Shown piece by piece: positions 7,801 to 54,998 of a DNA stretch of 64,000 nucleotides; position 1 is the stretch's first letter, and every line of letters starts with the position of its first letter. The translations under genes were made by a program, and so were the position numbers. A model generated the notes under the pieces. The model was given only the letters and a program-made list of their open reading frames with translations. It did not search any database and was not told the DNA's origin. Origin of the DNA: a bacterium (lineage in GTDB: Bacteria; Sumerlaeota; Sumerlaeia; SLMS01; JAHLLQ01); contig JAHLLQ010000004.1 of NCBI GenBank assembly GCA_020444065.1, positions 324,662-388,661 of the forward strand, in the 5' to 3' direction.

Positions 7801-9408
7801 GTGACGCCCAAAGTCCAGATCGCATTCGTCATTTGGCTTTCTGGAGTCGCCGAAGTAGAATCGCGAATTCGTCCCCGCGCGGTAGGCGTATTCCCACTCC
7901 GCTTCGGTTGGAAGCCTTGGGATGACAGTATCCTGGCCTGTGACTTCCATGTAGCCTTTCAGGAGTTCGATGAAGTCCTGGACGTTCTCGTAGTCGACAT
8001 AGGATCGGGGCATCCGGTAGTCCGTTGCGTAAGGGATGCCCGCGACATTCAGGTACTGCTTCCAGGTCACCTCGTACTTGCTCATGTAGAAATCGCGCGG
8101 AATCGTCACCAAGTGCAGCGGACCCTCGGCTGGGCTGCGGCTGCGCTCGTCATCCTGCGACCCCATCCAGTACGAGCCGGCAGGAATCCGCACCATCTCC
8201 AGGGGCAGATTGCCCGGCAGCATCAGGACAATATCCCGAGACGGAACCGAGTAGATTTTGACGTCTTCAAGGAAGATGGAGCCGCCAATCTTGACGAATT
8301 CATGCTCGGGGTCGGCCAGGATATCGAAAGAACACGCCAATTGGGAGCCGACCCCCACGTTTGGCGGGAAGAAGACCCGGTAGGTCTTCGGCGCATCGAT
8401 CGTCGGCGTGTTCTGCGCCCAACCGGTCGAGGAAATAACGGTGGTTTGACACGCACGGAATCTCGATTCATTCAAGCGAAGCCGAAAGCCGGGCACCAGA
8501 TCTTTGTCTTCGATGTCCGTGCCTACCGTGAAATCGGCGAAGTACAATCGATTGGGTTCGATTGTGATGTTGTTTTCCTGCTGGAGAGTGGAGCCCCAGA
8601 ACCCGAACTGGAACCCCTGGCGATCGGCGACCTCCATGCTTGCCCGACCCAGCGTTGCATCGAATCCAAAGTGCGGGCTGGAGAAGTACTCGTGCATTGT
8701 GAAGGTGTGCCAACCATCTGTATCGCCAAGAAACTCGTAGGTTTGTTCGAGTCGCGGAGACGACAGATCTGATGGATTCATGACCTCCATCTGAAACCTC
8801 TCCAGGCGCACCCTGGCGTCGGGTGAGTCGTTCGGATCGAAGTTCAGGAGATCGAACTCCGCGCGGAAGATGGGGCTGTTTGTCGGGGGACTGAAATAGA
8901 GGGTGTACTCCCGAGGAAGTCTGCCGGGAGAGTACGCCGCATCGCCCATCGAGACGATTGAGTAAACCTCAGCCTGCTGGCTGTTCTCGGCCGTCGTACG
9001 CAACCGAATCTCCGGCACCAGCCGCGCGTCTTCCAGATCAGAGGTGATTCGGAAGGTTGCCTTCAGGACCGCCGTGCCATCCACGCGTCCCACGTCGATC
9101 TTGTAGGTATCGTCGCGATCGGCCTCCGCTTCGGGACTCACCAACTGAAACGCCGGCGATTCCCAGACACCAACCTGCCCGTCGTTTGAAGTTGTGATGA
9201 TATCCAGGGAGCCAGGAGCGCCGGGGACGTTATCGAATTCCGGTGAACTGAACGGCGGAACAGCGTACGGTTGCCAGCCTTCGCTGTCGCCCCAGAAATT
9301 GTATTCGGTTTCCTGAGCCAATGCCGATCTTGGGCAGAGGCTGAAACAGGTCAGAATGATCGGTAGAAATGCAGACCAACACGAAAGAGTCTTCAACGAA
9401 GTTCTCAC
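4846..9408 (-). CDS. Secreted protein with two FGE/SUMF1-like domains and duplicated C-terminal modules
   Basis: 1,520 residues, starting at GTG 9408 with GGGAGG six bases upstream. A signal peptide (to about residue 32, ending ALAQ) is followed by two related beta-rich modules (about 35-215 and 222-395, each opening with a GD.(D/E)GW motif). Two FGE-sulfatase-like domains follow at about 404-633 and 688-919, with typical RLPTEAEWEYA, FGLYDMAGNVFEW and RGGS motifs. A Pro-Thr-Ser linker leads to two near-identical LamG-like modules (about 954-1210 and 1243-1498). In SUMF1 two cysteines follow the GGSY motif. Here the first domain has neither and the second only the later one, so formylglycine formation is unlikely; a lectin-like binding or structural role is more plausible. 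Confidence 0.85.
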   Translation of the reverse strand: MRTSLKTLSCWSAFLPIILTCFSLCPRSALAQETEYNFWGDSEGWQPYAVPPFSSPEFDNVPGAPGSLDIITTSNDGQVGVWESPAFQLVSPEAEADRDDTYKIDVGRVDGTAVLKATFRITSDLEDARLVPEIRLRTTAENSQQAEVYSIVSMGDAAYSPGRLPREYTLYFSPPTNSPIFRAEFDLLNFDPNDSPDARVRLERFQMEVMNPSDLSSPRLEQTYEFLGDTDGWHTFTMHEYFSSPHFGFDATLGRASMEVADRQGFQFGFWGSTLQQENNITIEPNRLYFADFTVGTDIEDKDLVPGFRLRLNESRFRACQTTVISSTGWAQNTPTIDAPKTYRVFFPPNVGVGSQLACSFDILADPEHEFVKIGGSIFLEDVKIYSVPSRDIVLMLPGNLPLEMVRIPAGSYWMGSQDDERSRSPAEGPLHLVTIPRDFYMSKYEVTWKQYLNVAGIPYATDYRMPRSYVDYENVQDFIELLKGYMEVTGQDTVIPRLPTEAEWEYAYRAGTNSRFYFGDSRKPNDECDLDFGRHASMWFCGNAPSDGGIEIGLKEPNAFGLYDMAGNVFEWVSDDYHTDYNGAPNDGSSWEEGGELKVIRGGSFATKAKANRAAARQAFPIDGYAPNLGIRLVGEIVPGPDETPISTPTPAPTPTPIEPIDETDPEVETLTIMLPGSVLLNLKLIPARSFEMGSPETERGRWRSESPLHTVNLAKNYYIGETEVTRLQMKSLLGPAWGGDGDLPATCVSLDETEEFITALNQHIASTGQEPITVRLPSEAEWEHACRAGTQSRFYFGDSLAVGDECEITVPRVENMWYCGNANSLRPVGSRAPNYFGLYDMSGSVYEWCEDDFIDDYEGAPTDGSPRYTDGYYVGKVLRGGSYAAEAARCRSASRMAYYDASSGNQRGFRIAADPAPWAVVTPIPSPTPIPSPTPSPSPSRSPTPPPTPTPAPRDILEDFSGYWGGTEGETAHLYYDNGFEGNGIGFESTTADYDSSTTAVAYDPNLSGYLRELSYCCYITDSRDYLFAFAVRIDSWVTDPNSSTNIPLPSAMQDDSVYYRGDFALNLRGAQGDLTLSPIPDIGYGGAGYTGGVVLPAAGSVWAGDGQWHHIIVRKSMELYRNSEIYVYVDPPNRFSPPIFSEVGFENGLAYTYPYGWFMGEYEYESIGVGASIVIDNVGFFDVWWGDAGLSDSLGRVFERYAHLNEMTTPAPTPSPTPSPTPSPTPSPSPTPTPSPTPTPRDIVEDFSGYLGGTAGETANPIYDIGFQGNGIGLEATAADYDSSTIAVGYDPDLTGYLVELSVVSHVTNSSDRLFSFAVKVESWVADADSSTNVPLPSAMQDDSVYYRGDFALNLHGTTGDLRLDPVEDDGYGGAGYTGGIVVPAAGSNWAGDGQWHHIIVRKIMQPDEDCEIHVYVDPQNRFSPPDFSEVGFENGLANLYPYGWFMGAYEYASNGPGASIVIDNVGFFDIWGGDAGVSDSLGRVFDTCARLNEVTSRSAAERPIARPLAGAVPMQQ
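4911..6540 (-). repeat. Tandem duplication, 864-bp period, inside the FGE-like gene
   Basis: The segments 4911-5676 and 5775-6540 encode the same roughly 255-residue module and differ by an exact offset of 864 bases (288 codons). They share long identical DNA stretches, for example around 4991-5027 and 5855-5891. The spacer between copies encodes a PT/PS linker made of near-perfect short repeats, which probably drove the duplication by unequal recombination. Confidence 0.9.
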
Positions 9409-9699
9409 GGCGCACCTCCCAGGCTCCTCACTACACCCATTCTATTTACACAGGTTTACGTTGGGTGCAAGACAAACATGCGTCGAATCGTGCATTTCGT
9501 CCATATGGCGCCGCCTCCCCCGGAGCGCGCTTCCAACTCTTTTTCCATCAATATCCGGCGAAATATCTCCGGGTTCGACGTTGACAGCCTTCCGGGGGCT
9601 TAGGCAGCCTTCCGCCCCGCTCGCACTGGGAGGCGATCTCCCCCGGGCAGCGCCCCCTCGATTCCGAGCCACCGGGCTGAAAGAAAGGGACTTCTCTCC

Positions 9700-11061
9700 A
9701 TGGCCGATGTTCTCCCGTTCGCCGGCACCCGCTTTGCCACCAAGGAAGAAAACATCAACCTGGCGGACGTGATCTGTCCGCCCTTCGATGCGATCACCCC
9801 TCCCGTGCAGCGAGAGCTCCACGACCGGCACGCTTACAACATCGTGCGCCTGGTGCTGGGCCACGAGGCCGCCAGCGACGACGAGTCGAACAACCGCTAC
9901 ACGCGCTCGGCGGAGTGCTATCGCGAGTGGAAGGCGCGCCAGCTTCTCGTCGACGAGCAGCGCAAGTGCTTCTACGTGCATGAAGAGACCATGCACATCG
10001 AAGGGCGCAAAGATCCGGTCCGCCGGATTGGGTTTATCGCGCTGGTGAAGCTGCAGGACTTCCGCAGTGCCAAGATCCGCGCCCACGAGGAGACCTTCGA
10101 GAGCATCCGCAACGATCGCCTTCGCTTGCTGCGCACGCTCCAGGTCAATACGTGCCCGATCCATGTGCTCTATCGCGATCCCGAGCAGGACGTGAACAAC
10201 GTCCTCGAAGAGATTATGAAGAAGAAGGAGCCGATCGAGAGCTTCACGGATCACGCCGGCAACGAGCATCGCATCTGGATGATGCACAAGAAGGACCCCA
10301 TTCTTCGCATTCACGAAGCGATGAAGCCGAAGCGCCTCATCATCGCAGACGGCCACCATCGCTACGAAACTGCCCTGAAGTTCCGCGATGAGATGCGCGA
10401 CATGACCGGCCGCCGCGACGGCCGCCAGCCCTACGATTTCACGATGATGTATCTGCAGCGCGCCGAGGACGAGACTCTCTTCCCACAGCCGGTGCATCGC
10501 GTTCTGGCCCGCGAACTGGGCACCGATACCGAGATCGACGAGATTCTCGAGGACATCGAGGAGTACTTCACGACGAGCGAGTTCAAGCTCGATATGGAAG
10601 ACGTTGAGAAGTCGACCTCGACCATCAAGGACAAGATCAGCCCGACCAAGACGATCAAGACGCGCTTCGCCATGGTGCTTCCCAACGGCCGCGCCTGGCA
10701 GCTCTCGCTCCGCAAGGATGCCGACATCCACGAGATGATCGAAGAAGAGACGATGACCGAGGATATGAAGCGCACGGACGTCGTGATTCTTCATCGCTTC
10801 GTCATTTCGCGCGGTTGGATCGGCAATCCGGAGGTGGAACTGGACGAGGATGACGTCTTCTATCGCACGGACATCGGTGCGGCGCTCCGACTGCTCGCCC
10901 GGCGCAAGGGCTGTGTTGCGTTCTTCACGAACGCCGTCGGCAAGGATGAGATGCTGACGATTGCCGAGAACGGCGAGCTGCTTCCCCATCGTTCCACGGA
11001 CTTCGAGCCGAAGTTGCCTTGCGGCATGGTCGTGCGCGACTTGAACGTCGGATTCGGCTAA
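9700..11061 (+). CDS. DUF1015 family protein
   Basis: 453 residues, close to the usual DUF1015 length. The N-terminus (LPFAGTRF...VICPPFDAI) and the internal ADGHHRYETAL motif are the family hallmarks, and the middle has the conserved charged helices. Family members are cytosolic and of unproven function; in many bacteria they neighbour serine and phosphoserine metabolism genes, and a serC gene lies in this window at 25.7 kb but not adjacent. ATG 9700 has AAAGGGA about ten bases upstream. The 291-base gap before it separates it from the divergent 4846-9408 gene and must hold both promoters; I could not pick a convincing one. Confidence 0.88.
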   Translation: MADVLPFAGTRFATKEENINLADVICPPFDAITPPVQRELHDRHAYNIVRLVLGHEAASDDESNNRYTRSAECYREWKARQLLVDEQRKCFYVHEETMHIEGRKDPVRRIGFIALVKLQDFRSAKIRAHEETFESIRNDRLRLLRTLQVNTCPIHVLYRDPEQDVNNVLEEIMKKKEPIESFTDHAGNEHRIWMMHKKDPILRIHEAMKPKRLIIADGHHRYETALKFRDEMRDMTGRRDGRQPYDFTMMYLQRAEDETLFPQPVHRVLARELGTDTEIDEILEDIEEYFTTSEFKLDMEDVEKSTSTIKDKISPTKTIKTRFAMVLPNGRAWQLSLRKDADIHEMIEEETMTEDMKRTDVVILHRFVISRGWIGNPEVELDEDDVFYRTDIGAALRLLARRKGCVAFFTNAVGKDEMLTIAENGELLPHRSTDFEPKLPCGMVVRDLNVGFG

Positions 11062-11102
11062 GAGACTGACAGCCGGTTTCGCCCTCCAGACAGGGGCCTC
11101 GC

Positions 11103-12167
11103 ATGAAGGTCTTCGACGGGCACTGCGACACTCTCACGCGGATATTTGGACCTCGCGTGAACGAGCCGCATGACTTCTTCGCACGCAATGCCGCCGGTCA
11201 CATCGATTTGCCGCGTGCCCGCGAGGGCGGCTACTGCGGCGGAATCTTCGCCATCTTCATTTCTCACGGAGCATCCCCCCGGGATCGATACAGCCCCTTC
11301 GAAGGCGGCTATCGTGTCGATGACCTGGACCAGATCCCGCATGAGATCGCCCGCGCCGAGACGGATAATGTGCTGGAAGGCCTTTGGGGGCTTCTGAAAC
11401 AGGCGGGCGATCGCGTGCGCCTGATCCGCGACATCGCCGACTTCGACGAGGCCCTGGCCGCCGATCAACTCGCAATGGTTCTGCACTTCGAAGGGGCCGA
11501 AGCCCTCGATCTCGAACTTCGACTGCTCGATGATTATTATCGCATGGGACTGCGTTCGCTCGGGCTCGTGTGGAGTCGTCCGAATGACTTCGCGTATGGC
11601 GTCCCGTTCGGGTATCCTCTCTCACCGGAAATTGGTCCGGGCCTCTCGGCGGCTGGTCGGGCGCTTGTCCGGCGCTGCAATGAGCTTGGGATTGTCGTCG
11701 ATGCCGCCCACCTGAATGAACGCGGCTTCTGGGACCTCGCAGAGCTCTCCAACGCGCCGCTCGTCGTTTCGCACTCCGCGGCTCATGCGCTCTGCGCCTC
11801 AACTCGAAATCTGACGGATGAACAGATCGGCGCCGTCGCTGCCTCCAAGGGACTGATCGGGATTCCATACGCTTGCTCGATGCTCCGCAGCGACGGCGAT
11901 GTGACCGCCGATGCCCCGATTGCCGAGATTGTTCGTCACGTCGCGTATGTGGCCGAACGAGCCGGAGTCGACCATGTCGCCCTCGGGTCGGACTTCGATG
12001 GGACGCAGATTCCCGAGGAGTTAGGCGACGTCGCCGGGCTCCCCCGACTGGTCGAAGCCCTCCGCGGTGCGGGATTCACCGAGGATGAGCTCCAACGCGT
12101 CTGCCACCTCAATTGGCGCCGGATTTTCGCCTCCACCTGGCAGCCTCCCGATCCCGCCCGGGCTTGA
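11103..12167 (+). CDS. Membrane dipeptidase, peptidase M19 family
   Basis: 354 residues, normal for M19 renal-dipeptidase-like zinc enzymes that split dipeptides (and often D-amino acid dipeptides). Metal ligands can be placed on the family pattern: HCD near the N-terminus (DGHCDTL), the bridging Glu in HFEGAEAL, His in VVSHSAAHAL, and the late Asp in ALGSDFDG. No signal peptide is evident, so it is probably cytosolic. It starts 41 bases after the DUF1015 gene on the same strand and precedes pncB, so the three may be one transcript. Confidence 0.92.
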   Translation: MKVFDGHCDTLTRIFGPRVNEPHDFFARNAAGHIDLPRAREGGYCGGIFAIFISHGASPRDRYSPFEGGYRVDDLDQIPHEIARAETDNVLEGLWGLLKQAGDRVRLIRDIADFDEALAADQLAMVLHFEGAEALDLELRLLDDYYRMGLRSLGLVWSRPNDFAYGVPFGYPLSPEIGPGLSAAGRALVRRCNELGIVVDAAHLNERGFWDLAELSNAPLVVSHSAAHALCASTRNLTDEQIGAVAASKGLIGIPYACSMLRSDGDVTADAPIAEIVRHVAYVAERAGVDHVALGSDFDGTQIPEELGDVAGLPRLVEALRGAGFTEDELQRVCHLNWRRIFASTWQPPDPARA

Positions 12168-12260
12168 TCCTCTTGCGCACCGGCGGTACTTCCCGCCATG
12201 GTGAAAGTGGGATTGGTGGTTCTCGCAGCCGCTTCAGTTTCAATCACGGAGGCAATCCGC

Positions 12261-13811
12261 ATGAAGCCCGACCAGCAGAGGCTTGCTGAAGGCATTCTCT
12301 TCACAGATCAGTATCAACTGACCATGGCGCAGCTCTTCTTTCGGATGGGCATGCACGACACAAACGTCCAGTTCGATCACTTCTATCGCAAGAACCCCGA
12401 TTACGGCGAGCACCAGGCGGGATTTTGCATCAATGCAGGGCTGGATTGGTTGCTGAATTGGATGCGGACGGCCCGGTTCCGCGATGAAGATATCGAGTGT
12501 CTGCGTGCGCAGAAGGGGCGCACCGGCGAGCGCGTCTTCCAGGACGACTTCCTCGATTGGCTGCGCAAGGAGGGCAACTTCGAGGGGCTCTCGATGATGG
12601 CGATTCCCGAGGGGCGCGTCGTCCATCCGAACGTTCCCCTGACGGTCGTCTGTGGCCCGCTTGCGAAAGTGCAGATTCTGGAGTCTGCGCTCCTTAACAT
12701 GCTCAATTACCAGACGCTGATCGCGACAAAGGCTGCCCGGATTCGCGCGGCCGGACGGGGCCAGACGTTGCTCGAGTTTGGCATGCGGCGTGGCCACGAT
12801 CGTGGCGTAAACGCAGGCATTCGCGCTGCATTGATCGGCGGAGCAGACTTTACTTCAGCGACTGGAGTTTCGTGCGCGTTGGGGCTTCCCCCAAAAGGCA
12901 CGCACGCCCACAGCATGGTGCAGGCTTTCATGGCCGTCGGCGAAGGTGAATTGGCTGCTTTCCGCGCCTACGCGGACGTCTATCCGGACGATTGCCTGCT
13001 GCTGGTGGACACGATCGATACGCTACGCAGCGGCATTCCAAACGCCATCACGGTCTTTCAGGAACTGCGCAAGAAAGGGCACGAGCCCTTTGGCGTGCGA
13101 CTCGATTCCGGCGACCTCGCGCACCTCGCGGTGCAATCGGCCAAGATGCTGGACCAGGCGCGCTTCCCGGATGTGAAGATCGTGCTCTCCAATTTGCTGG
13201 ACGAGATGGCGCTGGTTCAGATCCTGAATCAGATTGAGGAGGAAGCCCCTGGCCAGGGCATGAGCGCCGATCGCATCATCCGGCGGCTCGTGTATGGTGT
13301 GGGAACGCGGATGATCACATCCCGCGGCGATGCGGCCCTGGACGGTGTGTTCAAACTGGTCGCGATTGAACGCGACGGCGAGTGGACGCCGGCAATCAAG
13401 TTGTCAGAGACGCCTGCCAAGACGTTGAACCCAGGCTACAAGAAGATCTGGCGCCTGTACGACAAGCGCGACAAGGCAACGGCCGACCTCCTCGCGTTCC
13501 ACGATGAAGATCCGAACGTGATGGAGCCTCTCGTTCTGCGGCATCCCGTGGAATACGACACCAAGCGCGTGATCCCGAAGGCGGAACTGGACGAGATCGA
13601 GCCTCTGCACGTCGAAGTGCTGCGCGAGGGGCGTCGCGTTTATCAAACCCCGCCACTCGGCGATATTCGCGAGCGCCGCGACGCGGACCTGGAACGCCTG
13701 GACCTTGGCGTGAAGCGATTCATCAATCCGTATACGTATCACGTCTCCCTTTCGGAGAAACTGATGGCCGAGAAGCAGCGTCTCATTCGCCAGTTCCGTA
13801 TGTCAGGCTGA
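12261..13811 (+). CDS. pncB: Nicotinate phosphoribosyltransferase
   Basis: 516 residues from ATG 12261. I prefer this start to an in-frame ATG at 12198 because GGAGG sits eight bases upstream and the family core begins right away ([11 protein letters not shown]). The enzyme makes nicotinate mononucleotide from nicotinate and PRPP with ATP hydrolysis, in NAD salvage. Visible family motifs are [30 protein letters not shown] and [11 protein letters not shown], the last two lining the PRPP site. It ends with an Arg/Lys-rich helix as usual. A PRPP synthetase gene lies at 42.6 kb but is not linked. Assignment is firm. Confidence 0.95.
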
Positions 13812-47302: not shown

Positions 47303-47333
47303 AGGAAACCGCCCGGATCGTACCGGGCGGTTT
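47303..47333 (-). terminator. Intrinsic terminator between the unknown block and GT9
   Basis: A hairpin AAACCGCCCGG/CCGGGCGGTTT with a six-base loop, followed on the minus strand by CCTTTT, lies just after the stop of the 47356-47790 gene. Confidence 0.85.
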
Positions 47334-47355: not shown

Positions 47356-47790
47356 TCAGCCTTCGGGCGATTGCCCGCCCTGCTGCTCGGCCTGGACTTC
47401 CGCCAGGCGCTTTGGCGGCAGCTCGCTCAACAGCTTGCCGAGAGCCTTGTTCATACCGATGAACAGCGTGTGCCATTCGATCTGAATCTTGCTGAATGTG
47501 GCTTCCGGCTGGGCCTTCATGTGGCTCAGGCTCACCGTCTCCGTCAGAACATTCAGGATCTTTGGAGCATCCTTGAAGTAGTCGATGGAGAGCTCCTGGA
47601 ACTTGAAGTGATTCAGTGCCAGGATGCTGACCAGGTTGCCGAACTCGTGTTCTTCTTCCTGGGTGATATTCTTCTCGATCAGATCGTCGGAGAAGTACGT
47701 GAAGAACTGCTGCCACAGGGCTGCATACTCGCGCACGACGGCGATCCGATTTTCGATCGAGAGATGTTGAACGGCCTTTTTTTTCGCCAT
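47356..47790 (-). CDS. Unknown helical protein, paralogue of the 51354-51857 product
   Basis: 144 residues, predicted all-helical, soluble, with no signal peptide. It resembles the 51354-51857 product over its whole length: both have IE..(I/L)A.V near the N-terminus, a W..F..Y pattern, T.E(E/D)E..F, a VS..H motif in the middle and WH..F near residue 109. Overall identity is low, so the paralogy is old. It is the last gene of the block, 11 bases after the 42-residue membrane protein gene, and is followed by a terminator. I do not recognise a family. Confidence 0.8.
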   Translation of the reverse strand: MAKKKAVQHLSIENRIAVVREYAALWQQFFTYFSDDLIEKNITQEEEHEFGNLVSILALNHFKFQELSIDYFKDAPKILNVLTETVSLSHMKAQPEATFSKIQIEWHTLFIGMNKALGKLLSELPPKRLAEVQAEQQGGQSPEG

Positions 47791-47801
47791 GGTTGCTTAG
47801 G

Positions 47802-47930
47802 TCAGTTCTTTTTCTGGAAGATGTTCAGCGCCCAGAAGACGTAGAGCAGAAGCAACACGATTCCGGCGATCGCGAGAAGTTCCACGCGATAGACGTAGTT
47901 CAAATTCTCCAAGAAACTGAGTTTGAGCAT
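47802..47930 (-). CDS. 42-residue single-span membrane protein
   Basis: A short gene with AGGAG seven bases before ATG 47930. The product has a soluble start (MLKLSFLENLNYVYRVE), one hydrophobic span of about 18 residues (LLAIAGIVLLLLYVFWAL) and a Lys-rich end (IFQKKN). The gene lies 11 bases before the 47356-47790 gene and 27 bases after the big lipoprotein gene, filling the gap between them almost exactly, which supports it being real. Positive charge at the end suggests the C-terminus stays in the cytosol. No family is recognised. Confidence 0.75.
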   Translation of the reverse strand: MLKLSFLENLNYVYRVELLAIAGIVLLLLYVFWALNIFQKKN

Positions 47931-47957
47931 CCCGGTTCTCCTGCTTTGCTACCTTAG

Positions 47958-50900
47958 TTACTGAATGTCGCTCAACGTCACGCCGGACTGAACAAGACGG
48001 AAGCGAACTTCATCGCTGAAGAACTGGCGCTTCAGTTCGGCAATAATCTGGTTCGAGCTGTTGATCCGTGCATAGGCCTGATCGATCAAGCGTGCGCCCT
48101 CATCGTTCGACGCTTCGTTCAAGATGACCAGCTTCTCGAAGTGAATCGCGGCGATACGACCTTCGTTGAGGGCCGTGATCACTTCCTTGTGTGCCGCTTC
48201 CATGTCTGCGGGATACTCCATCTGAAGAACGATCGAGTAAAGCTGCTCAACGGCGGCGCGGAAATCGGACGGCGTATAGGAGCCGGCGATGGCCACCACG
48301 TTGCCGCGAGAGAAGCTGCCGAAGGCCAGAGCCTTCATCTCGTTCGGTCCCAGCGACAGCACGTTGCTGAACTGGTGCTGGGCGCGGCCGTAGGCTTCGA
48401 AGATTCCGAGAATTGAATCGCTGTAATGTTCCTGGTTGTAGCGCGACTCGATCTCGTCGATCTGCTTGATCGCGCTTTCGAGCGAACTGTGCGCCGACTT
48501 GTAGAGGCCCTTGTTGAAGTCCAACTGAGCGTACTTCAGATTGCCACGGGCATCTGAAATCAGATCCGCCGCGTAATCCGCCGCGCCTTCCTGAACCAGG
48601 AAGTTCAGGCGAGCCGTCTGCTGCTCGGCAACCTTGTCGACCAGGTCGTCTGTGTGATCCAGGGTCTGGCGCAGCTTGCCTTCCAGCTTCGCCATTTCCG
48701 CCATCACGTAGTCGTAACGATCAACGCTGAATTCATTCTCCAGGGCCGCAAGACGGCGGCGAACTTCGACCGAATCCTGAACCTGGAAGTAGTTGATGCC
48801 CTGCTGTTGGCCTTCCATCAGGTTCTCGCGCATCCGCGAAACGGCTTCGCGGAAGTTGCTGCGTTTGGCGGACTTGGCGACGGCGGTCGCCGTAGTCTCG
48901 GCCGAATCGGCCAGACGGGCCGAATCCGTGTAGTAGCCCTGATCGATCTTGTCGCGAGAGATGCGAACGTTGGCGCTGGCGCGGGCCAGAGTCTGGTTGT
49001 CGTACTCCCAACCACCCACGGCCTTCGCGTCGGCGATCGCCGCCTCGGCATCGTTGATCTTCTTGTAGAGGGCCTGCTCGGCGCGTTCTGCCGAGGACAG
49101 AGCCTGCGATTCAGCTTTCTCGTAGTCGCCGTTGTCGTACAGACCGCGGGCCGAATCGATCAGCTTCTTCGAGTTCTCCATGTCGCGACCGGCGTAAAGC
49201 GCTGCGCCGGCCTTCTGGGCGCGTTCGATGCGCTCGCGGGCCGCGGCCAGAGCGTCTTCGGCGGCCATGCGGTTCGCCTTTACCTCGGCCTGGCGGGCCA
49301 TCTCGATCGCCTGGTTGGCAGTCTCGACGGCCAGCTTCAAGCGGCCGTTCTGAAGCTCCACTTCGGCGTTCTGGATCAGCTCGTTGACCTGCACCAGAAG
49401 TTCCGCGGCATACTTGCGGGTCTTGTCAGACATTGCACGCTCGGCGGCTTCGCGGGCACCGCGGATGTCTTCCACGGCACGGCCGGAGATGCGCTGAGCC
49501 ATTAGTTCGATATTCGCACGGGCGGCGGCGGCCAGTTCGGTCGCCGGCAGGTAATCGCCCTTGTTGATCGCGTCCTTGACGCGGGCGAGGTCGCGGTTGC
49601 TGCGCTGCAACTCCTCGCTGGCGTATTCGCGGGCGCCGTCGCGCTCGTAACGGCTGATCATGTTCGACAGCTCGATCACGGCATTGTTGGCAACCAGGTG
49701 ATAAACCTCACCCAGGATGCGGTCGGCCACGCGGGACTGCTCTTCGGCCAGCAGGATCGCGCCACGGTACTTCTGCTCGCGCTGCCGGTTGTCCGCCACG
49801 ATCAGATTCTCGCGGGCGGCTTCCAGTTCCTGGCCAAGCTGCACGCGACGGGCTTCCTTGCCCGACTCGAACGGAATCATGTCCTCGGGAACCTCGGCCA
49901 TCGGCTCGAAGATTTCCTGGACCTGGGTATAGACGCTCTCGGTCGTATCCAGACGATTACCCGCCAGACGGATGGCTTCCGTCGCGAGGTCTTCGAACTG
50001 GCGATTGATCTTGTCGGCTTCTTCCGCAGCGCGGTTGGCGATTTCCTTGATTTGGTCGAACGCTGCTTCGGCTTCGGTCTGCGAAGCGCTCTCGGCGCCG
50101 GAGCGGATCTGCTGTGCTTCGTTCAGGAAGTCCTCGAGAACTTCGACGCGGCCGGGGAGGTACTCACGGGCGCCGCCCTCAACGAGGGCCTTGATTTCGC
50201 GCTGGATCGTCTCAATGCGGGAGTCAGCGGCTTTGCGCTTCGTCGTCAGCACCAGGTTCTGAGCCATCGGCTTCAGTTCCTTGGCCTGCAGTTTGACCTT
50301 GTTGTAACGGTTTTCGTTGAAGTCGCCGATCATCACTTCGTGCAGATTCACGACGGTGTTGTACTGCTCGGGAACGAATTCGCGGGCACCTTCGCTCAGC
50401 GCCGAGGCCAGGAGGTTTTCGATCTCATCGATCATTTCCTCGCTCTGCTCGCGCAGCACCTGCTCGATGCCGCGTTCCGCCTCACGTGCCGCCTCGATGA
50501 ACTGGTTAGCGGCCAACACGTAGTCGCGATCCTCGCCCATCGTCTTTTCGGCGCGGGCGATCACGTCCTGCACGTTGATGACTGTCTCGGGAGCGTAAGT
50601 ACCGCCGCCGACGGACTTCAACTCGAGCAGTTTCTGCTCGGCCTGAATCCGCTGGCGTTCCGCTTCTGTCTTCAGTTCGGACAGCAGCGTTGCCACCTCG
50701 CCCTTGATCTCGCGGGCCAACTGAATGGTCTGCGTGAAATCGTTATTGGCGCGGGCCTCTTCCGCCTCGGAGCGCAAATCGAGGATGCGCTGATAACGGT
50801 CGGGATCAATGCGGTTGCCGGAGTTGATATCCGCGACGCGGATCTCCTCCTCGGCTTCCGTCCACAGTGCGCGGGCCTCCGCCGACCGGACGTCGATCAA

Positions 50901-51176
50901 CGTCTGGTCCGCTGTGGTCTGTGCCTGCTTGGCCAGAACGAATGCCTGGCCCGTCTGCTCGGCAGCCAACTGACTGTTGGCCTGATTGATCAGACTGCGG
51001 ATTTCCTCGACCTTCTCGGGGTTATGTTCCGCCCCCCGCAGGTTCTCGATTTCCGCGAGCATTTCCTGGGTCTTCTTGATCGCTACGTTGGTGCGAGTTC
51101 CTTTACATGCCGTCACTGTCAGCGCCAGTGCCAACAGCAGGATCGCTAACCGAACAATTCGTGTCTGGTGCCGCAT
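47958..51176 (-). CDS. Large lipoprotein of DUF4398-like helical repeats
   Basis: 1,072 residues. A signal peptide ends in VTAC, a lipobox with the Cys at about residue 24, so a lipid anchor is likely. The rest is almost wholly alpha-helical and is built of about twelve repeats of roughly 50 residues following the scheme GA..Y....L..A...L..A......G.Y..A..LA..A...A, spaced by longer coiled-coil helices. This is the pattern of DUF4398, known from envelope proteins of several didermal groups, but here it forms an unusually long solenoid. It could span or brace the periplasm. It precedes the 42-residue membrane protein gene by 27 bases. Function unknown. Confidence 0.85.
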   Translation of the reverse strand: MRHQTRIVRLAILLLALALTVTACKGTRTNVAIKKTQEMLAEIENLRGAEHNPEKVEEIRSLINQANSQLAAEQTGQAFVLAKQAQTTADQTLIDVRSAEARALWTEAEEEIRVADINSGNRIDPDRYQRILDLRSEAEEARANNDFTQTIQLAREIKGEVATLLSELKTEAERQRIQAEQKLLELKSVGGGTYAPETVINVQDVIARAEKTMGEDRDYVLAANQFIEAAREAERGIEQVLREQSEEMIDEIENLLASALSEGAREFVPEQYNTVVNLHEVMIGDFNENRYNKVKLQAKELKPMAQNLVLTTKRKAADSRIETIQREIKALVEGGAREYLPGRVEVLEDFLNEAQQIRSGAESASQTEAEAAFDQIKEIANRAAEEADKINRQFEDLATEAIRLAGNRLDTTESVYTQVQEIFEPMAEVPEDMIPFESGKEARRVQLGQELEAARENLIVADNRQREQKYRGAILLAEEQSRVADRILGEVYHLVANNAVIELSNMISRYERDGAREYASEELQRSNRDLARVKDAINKGDYLPATELAAAARANIELMAQRISGRAVEDIRGAREAAERAMSDKTRKYAAELLVQVNELIQNAEVELQNGRLKLAVETANQAIEMARQAEVKANRMAAEDALAAARERIERAQKAGAALYAGRDMENSKKLIDSARGLYDNGDYEKAESQALSSAERAEQALYKKINDAEAAIADAKAVGGWEYDNQTLARASANVRISRDKIDQGYYTDSARLADSAETTATAVAKSAKRSNFREAVSRMRENLMEGQQQGINYFQVQDSVEVRRRLAALENEFSVDRYDYVMAEMAKLEGKLRQTLDHTDDLVDKVAEQQTARLNFLVQEGAADYAADLISDARGNLKYAQLDFNKGLYKSAHSSLESAIKQIDEIESRYNQEHYSDSILGIFEAYGRAQHQFSNVLSLGPNEMKALAFGSFSRGNVVAIAGSYTPSDFRAAVEQLYSIVLQMEYPADMEAAHKEVITALNEGRIAAIHFEKLVILNEASNDEGARLIDQAYARINSSNQIIAELKRQFFSDEVRFRLVQSGVTLSDIQ

Positions 51177-51353
51177 CCGACTTCAGCCTCCGGATCGCTA
51201 GAGAATTCCCGCTTTTTATCCACTTCCTTGCTTCGGTTGCCCATTCCAACGAACAACAACAGGCGGCGCAATGAAGAAGTGCCCCCATGGCGGCGAAGTT
51301 TTCCCCGCGAGAAGGCTTTCACCACGCTGATAAGCACTTGTCAAAGTGCCTCC

Positions 51354-51857
51354 CTACAGCCCCAGCAGGGCATAGGCGATTCCACCCACGACGGCGACAA
51401 CGACCACCACGATGGCGATGACCTTACCTTTGCTGCCTCCGCCCCCCTTTTTCTTCTTCCCGGCCGCACGCTGCGAGCGCGGGATGTAGCCTTCCGACAT
51501 GAACTTCAGCGCGCCGACGGTCCGGCTGAGGCGGACGAACACCCCGTGCCAGTCCTTGTACAGGGCACGCTTATCAGCCGCCGGCAAGGCACGAAGGTGC
51601 CCCACCGAGACGCATTTGTTCAGAAGGTCCCGGATGGCGGATCCGCCATAATCCAGTTCCTTCATTTCCTTGAGGCGCTCGCCAACGCTGCGGACGTTCC
51701 GAGCGACGGCGCTCTTGACCTCGAGGAAATTCGACTCGTCTTCCGGCGTAACATCTTCTTCGCCAAAGGACTTGTTCAGATACTTCTTGAAGCTCAACCA
51801 CTGCTCCAGAGTGTTCTGGACCATGGCGAGGTTCTCTTCGATGGCTTGCTTTTTCAT
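51354..51857 (-). CDS. C-terminally anchored membrane protein, paralogue of the 47356-47790 product
   Basis: 167 residues from ATG 51857, the first in-frame ATG of convincing context though without a good ribosome binding site. Residues 1-120 form helices similar to the 144-residue protein at 47356-47790 (shared IE..LA.V, W..F..Y, T.EDE..F, VSVGH, WH..F). A basic stretch, RAAGKKKKGGGGSKGK, then leads into a 20-residue hydrophobic span (VIAIVVVVVAVVGG and onward) at the very end, a tail-anchor layout. It is 177 bases upstream of the lipoprotein gene on the same strand. No known family recognised. Confidence 0.78.
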   Translation of the reverse strand: MKKQAIEENLAMVQNTLEQWLSFKKYLNKSFGEEDVTPEDESNFLEVKSAVARNVRSVGERLKEMKELDYGGSAIRDLLNKCVSVGHLRALPAADKRALYKDWHGVFVRLSRTVGALKFMSEGYIPRSQRAAGKKKKGGGGSKGKVIAIVVVVVAVVGGIAYALLGL

Positions 51858-51885: not shown

Positions 51886-51917
51886 CTCCCGCCCGTTGTG
51901 AAAGAAACGGGCGGGAG
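51886..51917 (-). terminator. Intrinsic terminator after the Gly-rich secreted protein gene
   Basis: A perfect 12-bp stem CTCCCGCCCGTT/AACGGGCGGGAG with an eight-base loop, followed on the minus strand by ATTCTGCC and weak T runs, lies 16 bases after the stop of the 51933-52958 gene. Confidence 0.8.
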
Positions 51918-51932
51918 GCACAAGCGAAAGGT

Positions 51933-52958
51933 TTACTGGCCCATACCGCCGAAGTAGGAACTGGAAGCTCCCGCGTTGCTCTGGATCTCATCGGCACCGA
52001 AGCGGGCTGCCACGGCACCACGCACGCCGCCGCCCTGCTCATCGGTCGTGCCTTCTTCCTCGCCGGCTCTTTGCGAGCCCGGGGGAACGAAATTGGCCGG
52101 AATCGGCAGCAGGGGAGTCCGCGGAGGAGGCGGCATGAAAGTCTGATAGAACTCCCAGTCTCCCTCCTGGTCCGGATTGACGCGGAAGTCGCGCAGGAAG
52201 CGGCTCGACCAGACGCCCAACTTGTCGTCGCGATCGGCTTCGAGATCGATCATCTTGGGGACTTCGGAGAGCGGTTCCGTTGTCGCGGCGATTACGTTGA
52301 AGAACTCGTTCGGGGGGAGATTCTCCGCCACTTGGAGCGCGCGGATGTAGCGCGTCTGAACCAGGTGGGCTTCCGGGCTCATGACGTTGTTGACCAGCGT
52401 CACCTTTGTGAAAATCTGGTCGTCGGCCCGGGCATCCATGCCGCGAACGCCATCGTCATAGTAAGAATCCTTGTACATCGGATTCACCTTGGTTTTGCGG
52501 GCATCCTGCAGCATCTCGCCGGTCACATGGCAGATCACGCGCTCGCCGGCGATCACCTGGATTCCGACGGCACTGGCTACGCCCGAGAATGACTGACCGG
52601 TATTGGGGTCGATGATCGCTCCGCCGCTGGCGCCGCTGAACTCACCGGTGTCGCTGAACGTCACGGTGCCCTCGTCGCCGCCGAATCCACCGCCACCACC
52701 GCCGAACGGATCGGCCGAGTCAAAGCCGCCGCCACCGCCTTGCTGGTTCACGCCGGCAACACCTTGGGCGCGCTGGAGCGCGAGTTGGCCCGCACCGCCG
52801 CCGCCAACGGATCCTGAGTTCAGCGTGTCCATGGCTTCCGGGCTGGCGAAGCCCGACGCGAAGCCGCCCTGGGCAGACACGACAGCGGGAACCGCCGCCA
52901 AGGCCAACGCGGCAACCGCCGCAACGCCCAGAATCTTCAAGTTGGATCGCTTCGCCAT
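51933..52958 (-). CDS. Unknown secreted Gly-rich protein
   Basis: 341 residues from ATG 52958 (AGGAG about nine bases upstream). An N-terminal signal peptide (MAKRSNLKILGVAAVAALAL, ending VSAQ) is followed by about 90 residues very rich in Gly, Ser and Asp with runs GGGGGFD and GGGGGGFGGD. Residues from about 130 form a compact region (VIAGERVICHVTGEMLQDAR, TKVTLVNNVMSPEAH), and the C-terminus is again low complexity with a PPPP run. A surface or envelope protein is likely. It lies downstream of leuD by about 110 bases on the same strand. No family recognised. Confidence 0.75.
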   Translation of the reverse strand: MAKRSNLKILGVAAVAALALAAVPAVVSAQGGFASGFASPEAMDTLNSGSVGGGGAGQLALQRAQGVAGVNQQGGGGGFDSADPFGGGGGGFGGDEGTVTFSDTGEFSGASGGAIIDPNTGQSFSGVASAVGIQVIAGERVICHVTGEMLQDARKTKVNPMYKDSYYDDGVRGMDARADDQIFTKVTLVNNVMSPEAHLVQTRYIRALQVAENLPPNEFFNVIAATTEPLSEVPKMIDLEADRDDKLGVWSSRFLRDFRVNPDQEGDWEFYQTFMPPPPRTPLLPIPANFVPPGSQRAGEEEGTTDEQGGGVRGAVAARFGADEIQSNAGASSSYFGGMGQ

Positions 52959-53067: not shown

Positions 53068-53631
53068 TCAGTCCTTGAGCATTCCTGCGCCGCGGGCGTA
53101 CTCGAAGACGTCCCCGGCCTCGATGATCGGCAGCACGTCTCCCAGTGGCTCCAGGCCGTAAGACTCGCCGGTCGTGTGGTTGATCAGTTTGGCTGCTTCC
53201 ATGTCGATCTCGACGTCGTCGCCCGTCCGAACCTTCTCGACCAGGCGTTCCGTGGATTCGAACGGGACCACATAGCCGCCGTTGACCGAATTCCGGAAGA
53301 AAATCCGCGCGTAAAACTCCGCCACGACGGCTTTCACGCCAGCCTCGGCGAGAGACAGCGGCGCATGCTCGCGCGAGCTGCCGCAACCGAAGTTCTTTCC
53401 GCCGATCACGATGTCAAACTCGCTGCTGTACTCTCCGTCCTTGACGAACGGGACATTGCCCTGGGGCAGTCCGGCCTGGGCCGGCGGCACGCCGCAAAGG
53501 CTATACTTGCCGAACATCTTCCGTTCTTCAGGATCCGAGGGGTTGTAAGCCAGGTGCTCGGCCGGGATAATCTGATCTGTATCGATGTCGTCGCCGAGCA
53601 CGAACGCTCGGCCGCGGATGGTCTTTTCCAT
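53068..53631 (-). CDS. leuD: 3-isopropylmalate dehydratase small subunit
   Basis: 187 residues. The LeuD swivel domain pattern begins GRAFVLGDDIDTDQIIPAEHL and includes GGKNFGCGSSREHAPLSLAEAGVKAV with the substrate-recognition loop, and FRNSVNGG near residue 110. With LeuC it interconverts 2- and 3-isopropylmalate in leucine synthesis. Its ATG overlaps the stop of the unknown gene upstream as TAATG, so translation is coupled, with GAGGAC just before. The long, archaeal-like LeuD type fits the HacA-like LeuC here. Confidence 0.95.
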   Translation of the reverse strand: MEKTIRGRAFVLGDDIDTDQIIPAEHLAYNPSDPEERKMFGKYSLCGVPPAQAGLPQGNVPFVKDGEYSSEFDIVIGGKNFGCGSSREHAPLSLAEAGVKAVVAEFYARIFFRNSVNGGYVVPFESTERLVEKVRTGDDVEIDMEAAKLINHTTGESYGLEPLGDVLPIIEAGDVFEYARGAGMLKD

Positions 53632-54902
53632 TAGTCCTCACTCATGATTGTGAAGTCGGGTTCCACCATTCGGACTTTCGATTCCACCGCGTCCGCCTGG
53701 GTAACAAGCTGCTCGGCCATGCGGTTCAGCCGGCGAGCCATCTCCTTCACCGCCTCGTCGTCGGATCGGCTGGCCAGGAGGGTCAGCTCGATACCTGCAT
53801 CGTTGAATTGGCGCATTGCCTCGGATGCCGCTGTAACCAAGGCCGCGCCTTCGTCCGTCCGAACGGCGCGAACGCTCTTCTGATTCAGCAATTCCGTCAG
53901 GTCTCGAATACTCGACTGCGTCGTGTAGGCGCTCTTGTGAATCTGGTCGAGAAGCTCCAGTCCCTTGCGGCGATCGGGCGACGTCGGAGGTACGCTGTAC
54001 GCATCCTCGGCCTTGATGATTGCGTCTTCGGGGATCTTGATTCGCAGGGAGTTGACCGCGCCGGCTGCGCTGTAGCCGGAGCTGGAACCGGTGCTGGGGC
54101 GCGTGCCTTGCACGAGCGAGGTCCCCTCAACCCAAACGGACAGCAGGCCAGTCGGCTTCAAGGGATCTTGCGCTTCCACCAGGTGCTCCTTGGTGCCGAG
54201 CTCTTTGACGATCTCCTGGCGTTTGGCACCAATCGTTTCGGCCAGGGCCGATTCACGACGCGTTCCGCTGACGCGGATGATGCGCAGGTTCTTCAGGCGG
54301 CGCGTATAATCGGCGCGCGGGAAGACGTAATCGATCCCCACAACCTCTTCGATGGCCCACTCATCGATCCGGAAGACTTCGGCAACGTCGAAATCCGTCG
54401 ACTTCAGAACGACGTAGGCCGTCTGCCAGTGGTATCCGGATTGATTCTGGACACTCATCTCGATCTTGACGGTGTCTTCGGTCGGGAACGTGCGGCGATC
54501 GACGCGGAAGGGATAAAGCTCCGGTGCCGGCGGTTCCTCAGTGATCGGATCGAGAGCCGGGCCGACGTATTCTGCGCGATCGATCGGCTTCTCGGGCTCG
54601 GTGTTCGTTTCCTGGATTTCGCTGCGCGTGGGTGGCCTTCGCGCCGGTGGACGGCGTTCGGGCGCCTTTGGCGTGGCCTCGGCGACCTCTTTGGTCGTGG
54701 GACGACGTGTGGGTGTTTGCGGCTGGGTCGTGCGCCGTGCCGGCAGCTTGGCCTGTTGCTCCGCCATGGCGCGGAAATCGACCGTCTGCGTTTTGCCCGA
54801 GAAGACGTCGCGGACTTTCTGCGGCTCCAAGGCCACATAGCCGAAGGCGATGCCGACGGCGATAAGATTGATTAGCAAGACTGACCAGAGTGCATTTTTC
54901 AC
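53631..54902 (-). CDS. Unknown membrane-anchored protein between leuC and leuD
   Basis: 423 residues from GTG 54902, preferred to ATG 54950 because GGGATGGGG lies upstream and a membrane anchor (WSVLLINLIAVGIAFGYVAL) then starts at residue 5. A Pro/Thr/Arg-rich disordered part follows to about residue 120, then a beta-rich domain (about 130-300) resembling a receptor-like or Ig-like fold (VKIEMSVQNQSGYHWQTAYVVL), and helices from 330 (ELLDQIHKSAYTTQSSIRDLTELLNQK) with coiled-coil character. Its stop overlaps the leuD start. It is neither a leucine enzyme nor a family I recognise. Confidence 0.78.
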   Translation of the reverse strand: MKNALWSVLLINLIAVGIAFGYVALEPQKVRDVFSGKTQTVDFRAMAEQQAKLPARRTTQPQTPTRRPTTKEVAEATPKAPERRPPARRPPTRSEIQETNTEPEKPIDRAEYVGPALDPITEEPPAPELYPFRVDRRTFPTEDTVKIEMSVQNQSGYHWQTAYVVLKSTDFDVAEVFRIDEWAIEEVVGIDYVFPRADYTRRLKNLRIIRVSGTRRESALAETIGAKRQEIVKELGTKEHLVEAQDPLKPTGLLSVWVEGTSLVQGTRPSTGSSSGYSAAGAVNSLRIKIPEDAIIKAEDAYSVPPTSPDRRKGLELLDQIHKSAYTTQSSIRDLTELLNQKSVRAVRTDEGAALVTAASEAMRQFNDAGIELTLLASRSDDEAVKEMARRLNRMAEQLVTQADAVESKVRMVEPDFTIMSED

Positions 54903-54998
54903 GGAATTGACCCCATCCCTGTGGGTGACGGTATCGTGAGTCCTCCGCATGAGTGGGACAATTCAAGGGCGCCAGATGTTCCCGGCGCCTCCCGAGGC

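Follow-up and report, generated by a model that had tools for sequence, protein, structure and literature searches.

The closest described counterparts of the gene unit analyzed here are the PilMNOPQ alignment complex of type IV pili, the Tol-Pal system and other outer-membrane tethers, the small single-span accessory subunits of the KdpF, CydX and AcrZ type, and lipoproteins with DUF4398 repeats (PF14346). PilMNOPQ distributes cytoplasmic, inner-membrane and lipoprotein parts across the envelope, and its PilP component has a β-domain; tethers of the Tol-Pal kind combine a membrane protein with an outer-membrane lipoprotein. DUF4398 matches in the other phyla sampled are mostly within open reading frames of 100–600 amino acids and extend over one or few repeats, and our literature search on DUF4398 and on the five-gene unit returned passing mentions only.

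The unit lies in a 64,000-nucleotide stretch of DNA (the window) from a Sumerlaeota genome bin of 5.2 Mb that is 97% complete. It encodes a secreted protein (U372), a tail-anchored helical protein (WH1), a long repeat lipoprotein (LIPO), a very small membrane protein (micro-TM) and a soluble paralogue of WH1 (WH2), where WH is a label derived from a conserved Trp-His and implies no winged helix. The likeness to PilMNOPQ is one of working plan only, i.e., cytoplasmic, inner-membrane and lipoprotein parts across the envelope, with a WH paralogue encoded beside pilB-pilC; however, none of the five proteins matches a PilM, PilN, PilO, PilP or PilQ family in Pfam or NCBIfam, and LIPO is helical, in contrast to the β-domain of PilP. 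Likewise, the membrane protein and lipoprotein recall Tol-Pal, but no TolQ, TolR, TolA, TolB, Pal or OmpA-like domain was found in the five proteins with the same databases. Micro-TM resembles the KdpF, CydX and AcrZ type in its size range (about 30–50 amino acids), single helix and position beside presumed partners, and differs in having no sequence family match and a conserved pattern of its own. The LIPO repeats score higher than the curated DUF4398 cut-off; however, with 11 helical repeats of about 71 residues in a protein of 1072 amino acids, and with its place in a fixed five-gene unit, LIPO is unlike the DUF4398 reading frames of the other phyla sampled.

Organization of the gene unit

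A preliminary description of the window listed four adjacent minus-strand genes, and all four open reading frames are found at the coordinates below. The fifth gene directly upstream, U372, was missed, and the extent of the unit was thereby underestimated. The features are as follows, in the direction of transcription.

51933–52958, minus strand: U372, secreted protein of about 341 amino acids, first gene of the unit
51886–51917, minus strand: hairpin with a 12-bp stem, G+C-rich, without a T-run, in the gap between U372 and WH1
51354–51857, minus strand: WH1, 167 amino acids, helical WH domain and C-terminal tail anchor (about 51366–51422)
47958–51176, minus strand: LIPO, 1072-residue lipoprotein with Cys24, DUF4398-like repeats and a unique C-terminal region
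47802–47930, minus strand: micro-TM, single-span protein of 42 amino acids
47356–47790, minus strand: WH2, 144-residue soluble paralogue of WH1
47306–47333, minus strand: intrinsic terminator closing the unit, dG −23.3, z −3.78

The strong terminator described after the block looks genuine (47333–47306, z −3.78). A second terminator had been proposed ahead of the block, but the structure at that point is the strong 12-bp hairpin 51917–51886, which lacks a T-run and was not called by the terminator scan; since the upstream gene U372 is also a conserved member, this hairpin lies inside the unit. In the window it has a dG of −26.1 and a z of −3.99, and strong hairpins are present in the U372–WH1 gap of three relatives (L035, z −2.1; L038, z −5.0; L039, z −2.4), while the gaps of L043 and L046 have no strong hairpin and that of L073 is not significant (z 0.13). 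The hairpin is possibly an attenuator or an RNA-processing site.

The unit's neighbours in the window are leuCD and glycosyltransferase genes, and there is no pilus gene within the unit itself. A conserved 439-residue single-span protein of no known family (53631–54950) is encoded between leuC and leuD in the window and in L039 and L040, and adjoins U372 in related families; it was observed at 10 loci.

Conservation of the unit in three phyla

All 29 Sumerlaeota loci keep the order WH1–LIPO–micro-TM–WH2; the micro-TM gene between LIPO and WH2 was identified by sequence match in 26 of these and by reading the gap in the other three (L049, L050 and L057). U372 is directly upstream of WH1 in all 28 Sumerlaeota loci with sequence at that position, and is present in 39 of 40 genomes of the phylum; LIPO is found in 38 of the 40, and in 20/20 of the better ones. 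Beyond the five genes the flanks change, with any one neighbour common to at most ten loci.

A profile search with WH2 among a sample of 386 genomes revealed relatives outside Sumerlaeota as well. Two genomes of a second phylum, here phylum B (G182 and G319), carry a pair of WH genes separated by about 4 kb; a LIPO homologue lies in the interval, U372 precedes the pair, and the LIPO–WH2 gaps encode single-span peptides of 32–33 residues with the micro-TM pattern. Of the 14 genomes of this phylum, 13 have LIPO, and micro-TM is present at each of the 12 loci where sequence is available. Both genomes of a third phylum, phylum C (G167 and G304), have WH1–LIPO–micro-TM–WH2, with U372 elsewhere in one (L101 versus L109) and ahead of the unit in the other. 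Full-length LIPO was found only in Sumerlaeota and phyla B and C among the 386 genomes sampled, and only once per genome. The expectation that the genes would stay neighbours in related genomes is borne out across the phylum and in two further phyla. Judged from these sequences, the five-gene unit is older than the phylum Sumerlaeota.

Two irregular cases were observed. At L106 (G386, 8509–13725) the frames of the unit are broken and LIPO, WH1 and U372 are in fragments, which reflects either sequencing error or decay. In G167, an additional U372 gene is found outside the unit, next to a large gene with a start that resembles FtsK on inspection by eye.

Micro-TM occupies the same position in 29/29 Sumerlaeota, 12/12 phylum B and 2/2 phylum C loci, and is 32–51 amino acids long everywhere. 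Its conserved pattern consists of a Glu at the helix start (39 of 41 sequences), an aromatic-rich second half (Tyr or Phe in 41 of 41) and a C-terminal end of the L.LFKK type, the C-terminus being more basic than the N-terminus in 38 of 41.

Paralogy and topology of the WH proteins

The outer two genes had been described as paralogues with common motifs, and this is in agreement with a BLASTP comparison of WH1 and WH2 (28% identity, E 9e-16) and with the profile-profile comparison of the two families (E 2.8e-18, 99% probability, 115 columns); the motifs are kept in 24–25 relatives each, and no variation was seen at W, WH and G in the alignments of WH2 (24 sequences) and WH1 (25 sequences). The concern that the two helical proteins might prove unrelated finds no support, given paralogy at E 2.8e-18. 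In a phylogenetic tree, WH1 and WH2 form separate clades within each of three phyla. A common origin of the pair before the split of the three phyla was not adopted, because the tree resolves the clades within phyla only.

The WH domain is predicted to be an all-helical bundle (AF2 model of WH2, pLDDT 91.5). A Foldseek search of this fold against the PDB gave a best E of 0.2 and none at or below 0.001, a sequence-profile search against solved structures returned nothing meaningful, and 21 diverse members had no consistent match among curated families. Similarity to SNARE-like or QseG-like helical bundles was considered and set aside, as these were the top weak fold matches only, the best at a Foldseek E of 0.2.

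In the window, WH1 and WH2 both lack a signal peptide as well as any N-terminal span. The WH1 tail anchor is present in 25 of 29 homologues, and all 25 anchored proteins have Lys or Arg on its N-terminal side. According to the positive-inside rule, positive charges mark the cytoplasmic side of the membrane, and the WH1 domain is therefore assigned to the cytoplasm. At L046 (7415–8164), WH2 is fused to a C-terminal TM2 membrane domain (Pfam, 2.2e-12), while WH1 at this locus lacks the tail anchor; the membrane anchor seems to have moved between the paralogues. In phylum B neither WH paralogue is anchored, and micro-TM is therefore the sole inner-membrane span there. WH1 and WH2 both look cytoplasmic by these criteria, and our data do not lend support to the earlier suggestion that the paralogues face opposite sides of the membrane, which was rejected in view of the tail-anchor charges (25/25), the missing signal peptides and the TM2 fusion.

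A third WH paralogue beside pilus and DNA-uptake genes

The preliminary description recognized the pair in the window; what it missed was the wider distribution of the family and a third paralogue located by pilus genes. This third protein, widespread in Sumerlaeota, consists of a WH domain, one span and a periplasmic tail. Among 22 Sumerlaeota loci, 14 have pilC immediately upstream of this gene and 15 have dprA immediately downstream; one or both are present in 20. Most Sumerlaeota, and phylum C as well, show the order pilB-pilC-[WH-TM]-dprA-topA. Pfam assigns these neighbours to T2SSF, DprA, topoisomerase I and T2SSE. The WH gene itself, observed between pilC and dprA at L110–L129, L054, L061 and L087, has no Pfam family, and a search of the pilC/dprA literature found no description of such a gene in titles or abstracts. 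Two other genomes carry a WH gene after pilT. In other phyla, a stand-alone WH-TM gene adjoins a gene for an HU-type DNA-binding protein at six loci (L077, L079, L081, L084, L085 and L086), and the context of stand-alone WH genes is therefore not only that of pili.

Separately, the gene immediately preceding U372 is comEA in four Sumerlaeota families, one of them the deepest lineage, L057 (NCBIfam TIGR00426, above cut-off). Most families lack comEA beside the unit, as does phylum B, where inspection by eye found a proC-like gene upstream of the unit. Type IV pili are reported for all Sumerlaeota metagenome-assembled genomes of one study (PMC8092238). The contexts of the third paralogue and of comEA point, indirectly, to the type IV pilus or DNA-uptake machinery.

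The lipoprotein and the secreted protein

LIPO alone among the five proteins matches a Pfam or NCBIfam family, and none of the five contains an enzyme domain recognized by these databases. Four stretches of its repeats match DUF4398 (E 4.2e-10; 40.4 bits against a gathering threshold of 27.9), and the homologue in phylum C matches at 3.1e-14. The lipobox cysteine (Cys24) is invariant in 28 of 28 LIPO proteins, and the +2 residue was never Asp among 38 lipoboxes read. In E. coli, Asp at this position bears on whether a lipoprotein is destined for the outer or the inner membrane, and by that rule its absence fits sorting of LIPO to the outer membrane. The host genome encodes an Omp85/BamA protein (E 1.6e-40), and an outer membrane is therefore expected; LptD was not found in this genome, which suggests that the outer membrane may be unusual. 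LIPO is probably anchored there.

U372 has a signal peptide, a Gly/Pro-rich linker and a core of 180 amino acids with the motif YYDDG..G...A.D..Y. The core is predicted as a mixed α/β domain (AF2, pLDDT 91.4), the fold of which has no match in the PDB (best E 1.5). Weak matches to U372 in other phyla were not accepted as homologues, as they cover only about 20–60 residues around DDG...D...DG.Y, taken as a generic motif. Three homologues have zinc-ribbon-like cysteines after the signal peptide (L102, 9043–10047; L103, 2823–3815; L057, 5723–6613).

Discussion

Conservation makes it very probable that the five genes form one trans-envelope unit. The preliminary description had proposed an envelope machine; co-inheritance of the genes as one unit, with their order kept in three phyla, upholds this part of the proposal, but not the topology with paralogues on opposite sides. 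Our preferred reading, to which we assign a probability of roughly 0.38, is that the products make up one trans-envelope complex, an accessory scaffold for type IV pili or the DNA-uptake apparatus. WH1 and WH2 would reside at the cytoplasmic face, WH1 usually tail-anchored in the inner membrane, and micro-TM would cross this membrane so that its basic LFKK-type tail is in the cytoplasm, linking the WH pair to the periplasm. LIPO, probably anchored in the outer membrane, would provide an elongated helical scaffold within the periplasm, to which the secreted U372 would bind, and the complex as a whole would serve the pilus or uptake apparatus in an accessory role.

A general tether or spacer between the inner and outer membranes, unrelated to pili, is a somewhat unlikely alternative in which LIPO sets the width of the periplasm or holds the envelope, with anchorage through micro-TM and the WH pair. 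The long helical repeats of LIPO and the lack of recognized enzyme domains throughout the unit would suit such a device, and near-universal presence in Sumerlaeota (38/40 genomes; 20/20 of the better ones) is what a core envelope part would show; however, a tether leaves both the third WH paralogue with pilB-pilC-dprA and the ancestral-looking comEA neighbour unexplained. That the unit is instead a sensing or signalling relay, in which U372 or LIPO senses a periplasmic state that is conveyed by micro-TM to the cytoplasmic WH pair, is improbable: the cytoplasmic helical bundles and the single-span coupler are in keeping with a relay, as are the acidic DDG...D motif of U372 and the zinc-ribbon-like cysteines of some relatives, but the unit encodes no kinase, regulator or DNA-binding domain, and none is a consistent neighbour of it.

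We give similarly low credence to the view that there is no single machine, and that five envelope genes remain neighbours owing to common regulation or to inertia of the genome. The individual families have diverged, the hairpin between U372 and WH1 could split transcription, and one phylum-C genome has U372 elsewhere; yet the order is kept in three phyla while the surroundings are shuffled, and a gene of only 32–51 codons' worth of protein is never lost from its place.

Returning to the complex with an accessory role in pili or DNA uptake, the broader proposition that the unit of the three phyla is an undescribed machine, coupled to these processes via the third WH paralogue, is rather tentative. 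It is new in the sense that this set of parts occurs in none of the known systems tested, and that four of the five proteins fall outside the curated families searched; if the pilus link is true, the unit is better described as a new module, accessory to a machine already known. If the five proteins do belong to a single complex, then Sumerlaeota and at least two further phyla possess a core envelope machine that has gone unnamed. The micro-protein, kept in place across three phyla, offers a ready experimental handle, and the WH paralogue between pilC and dprA makes the link to pili and DNA uptake directly testable.
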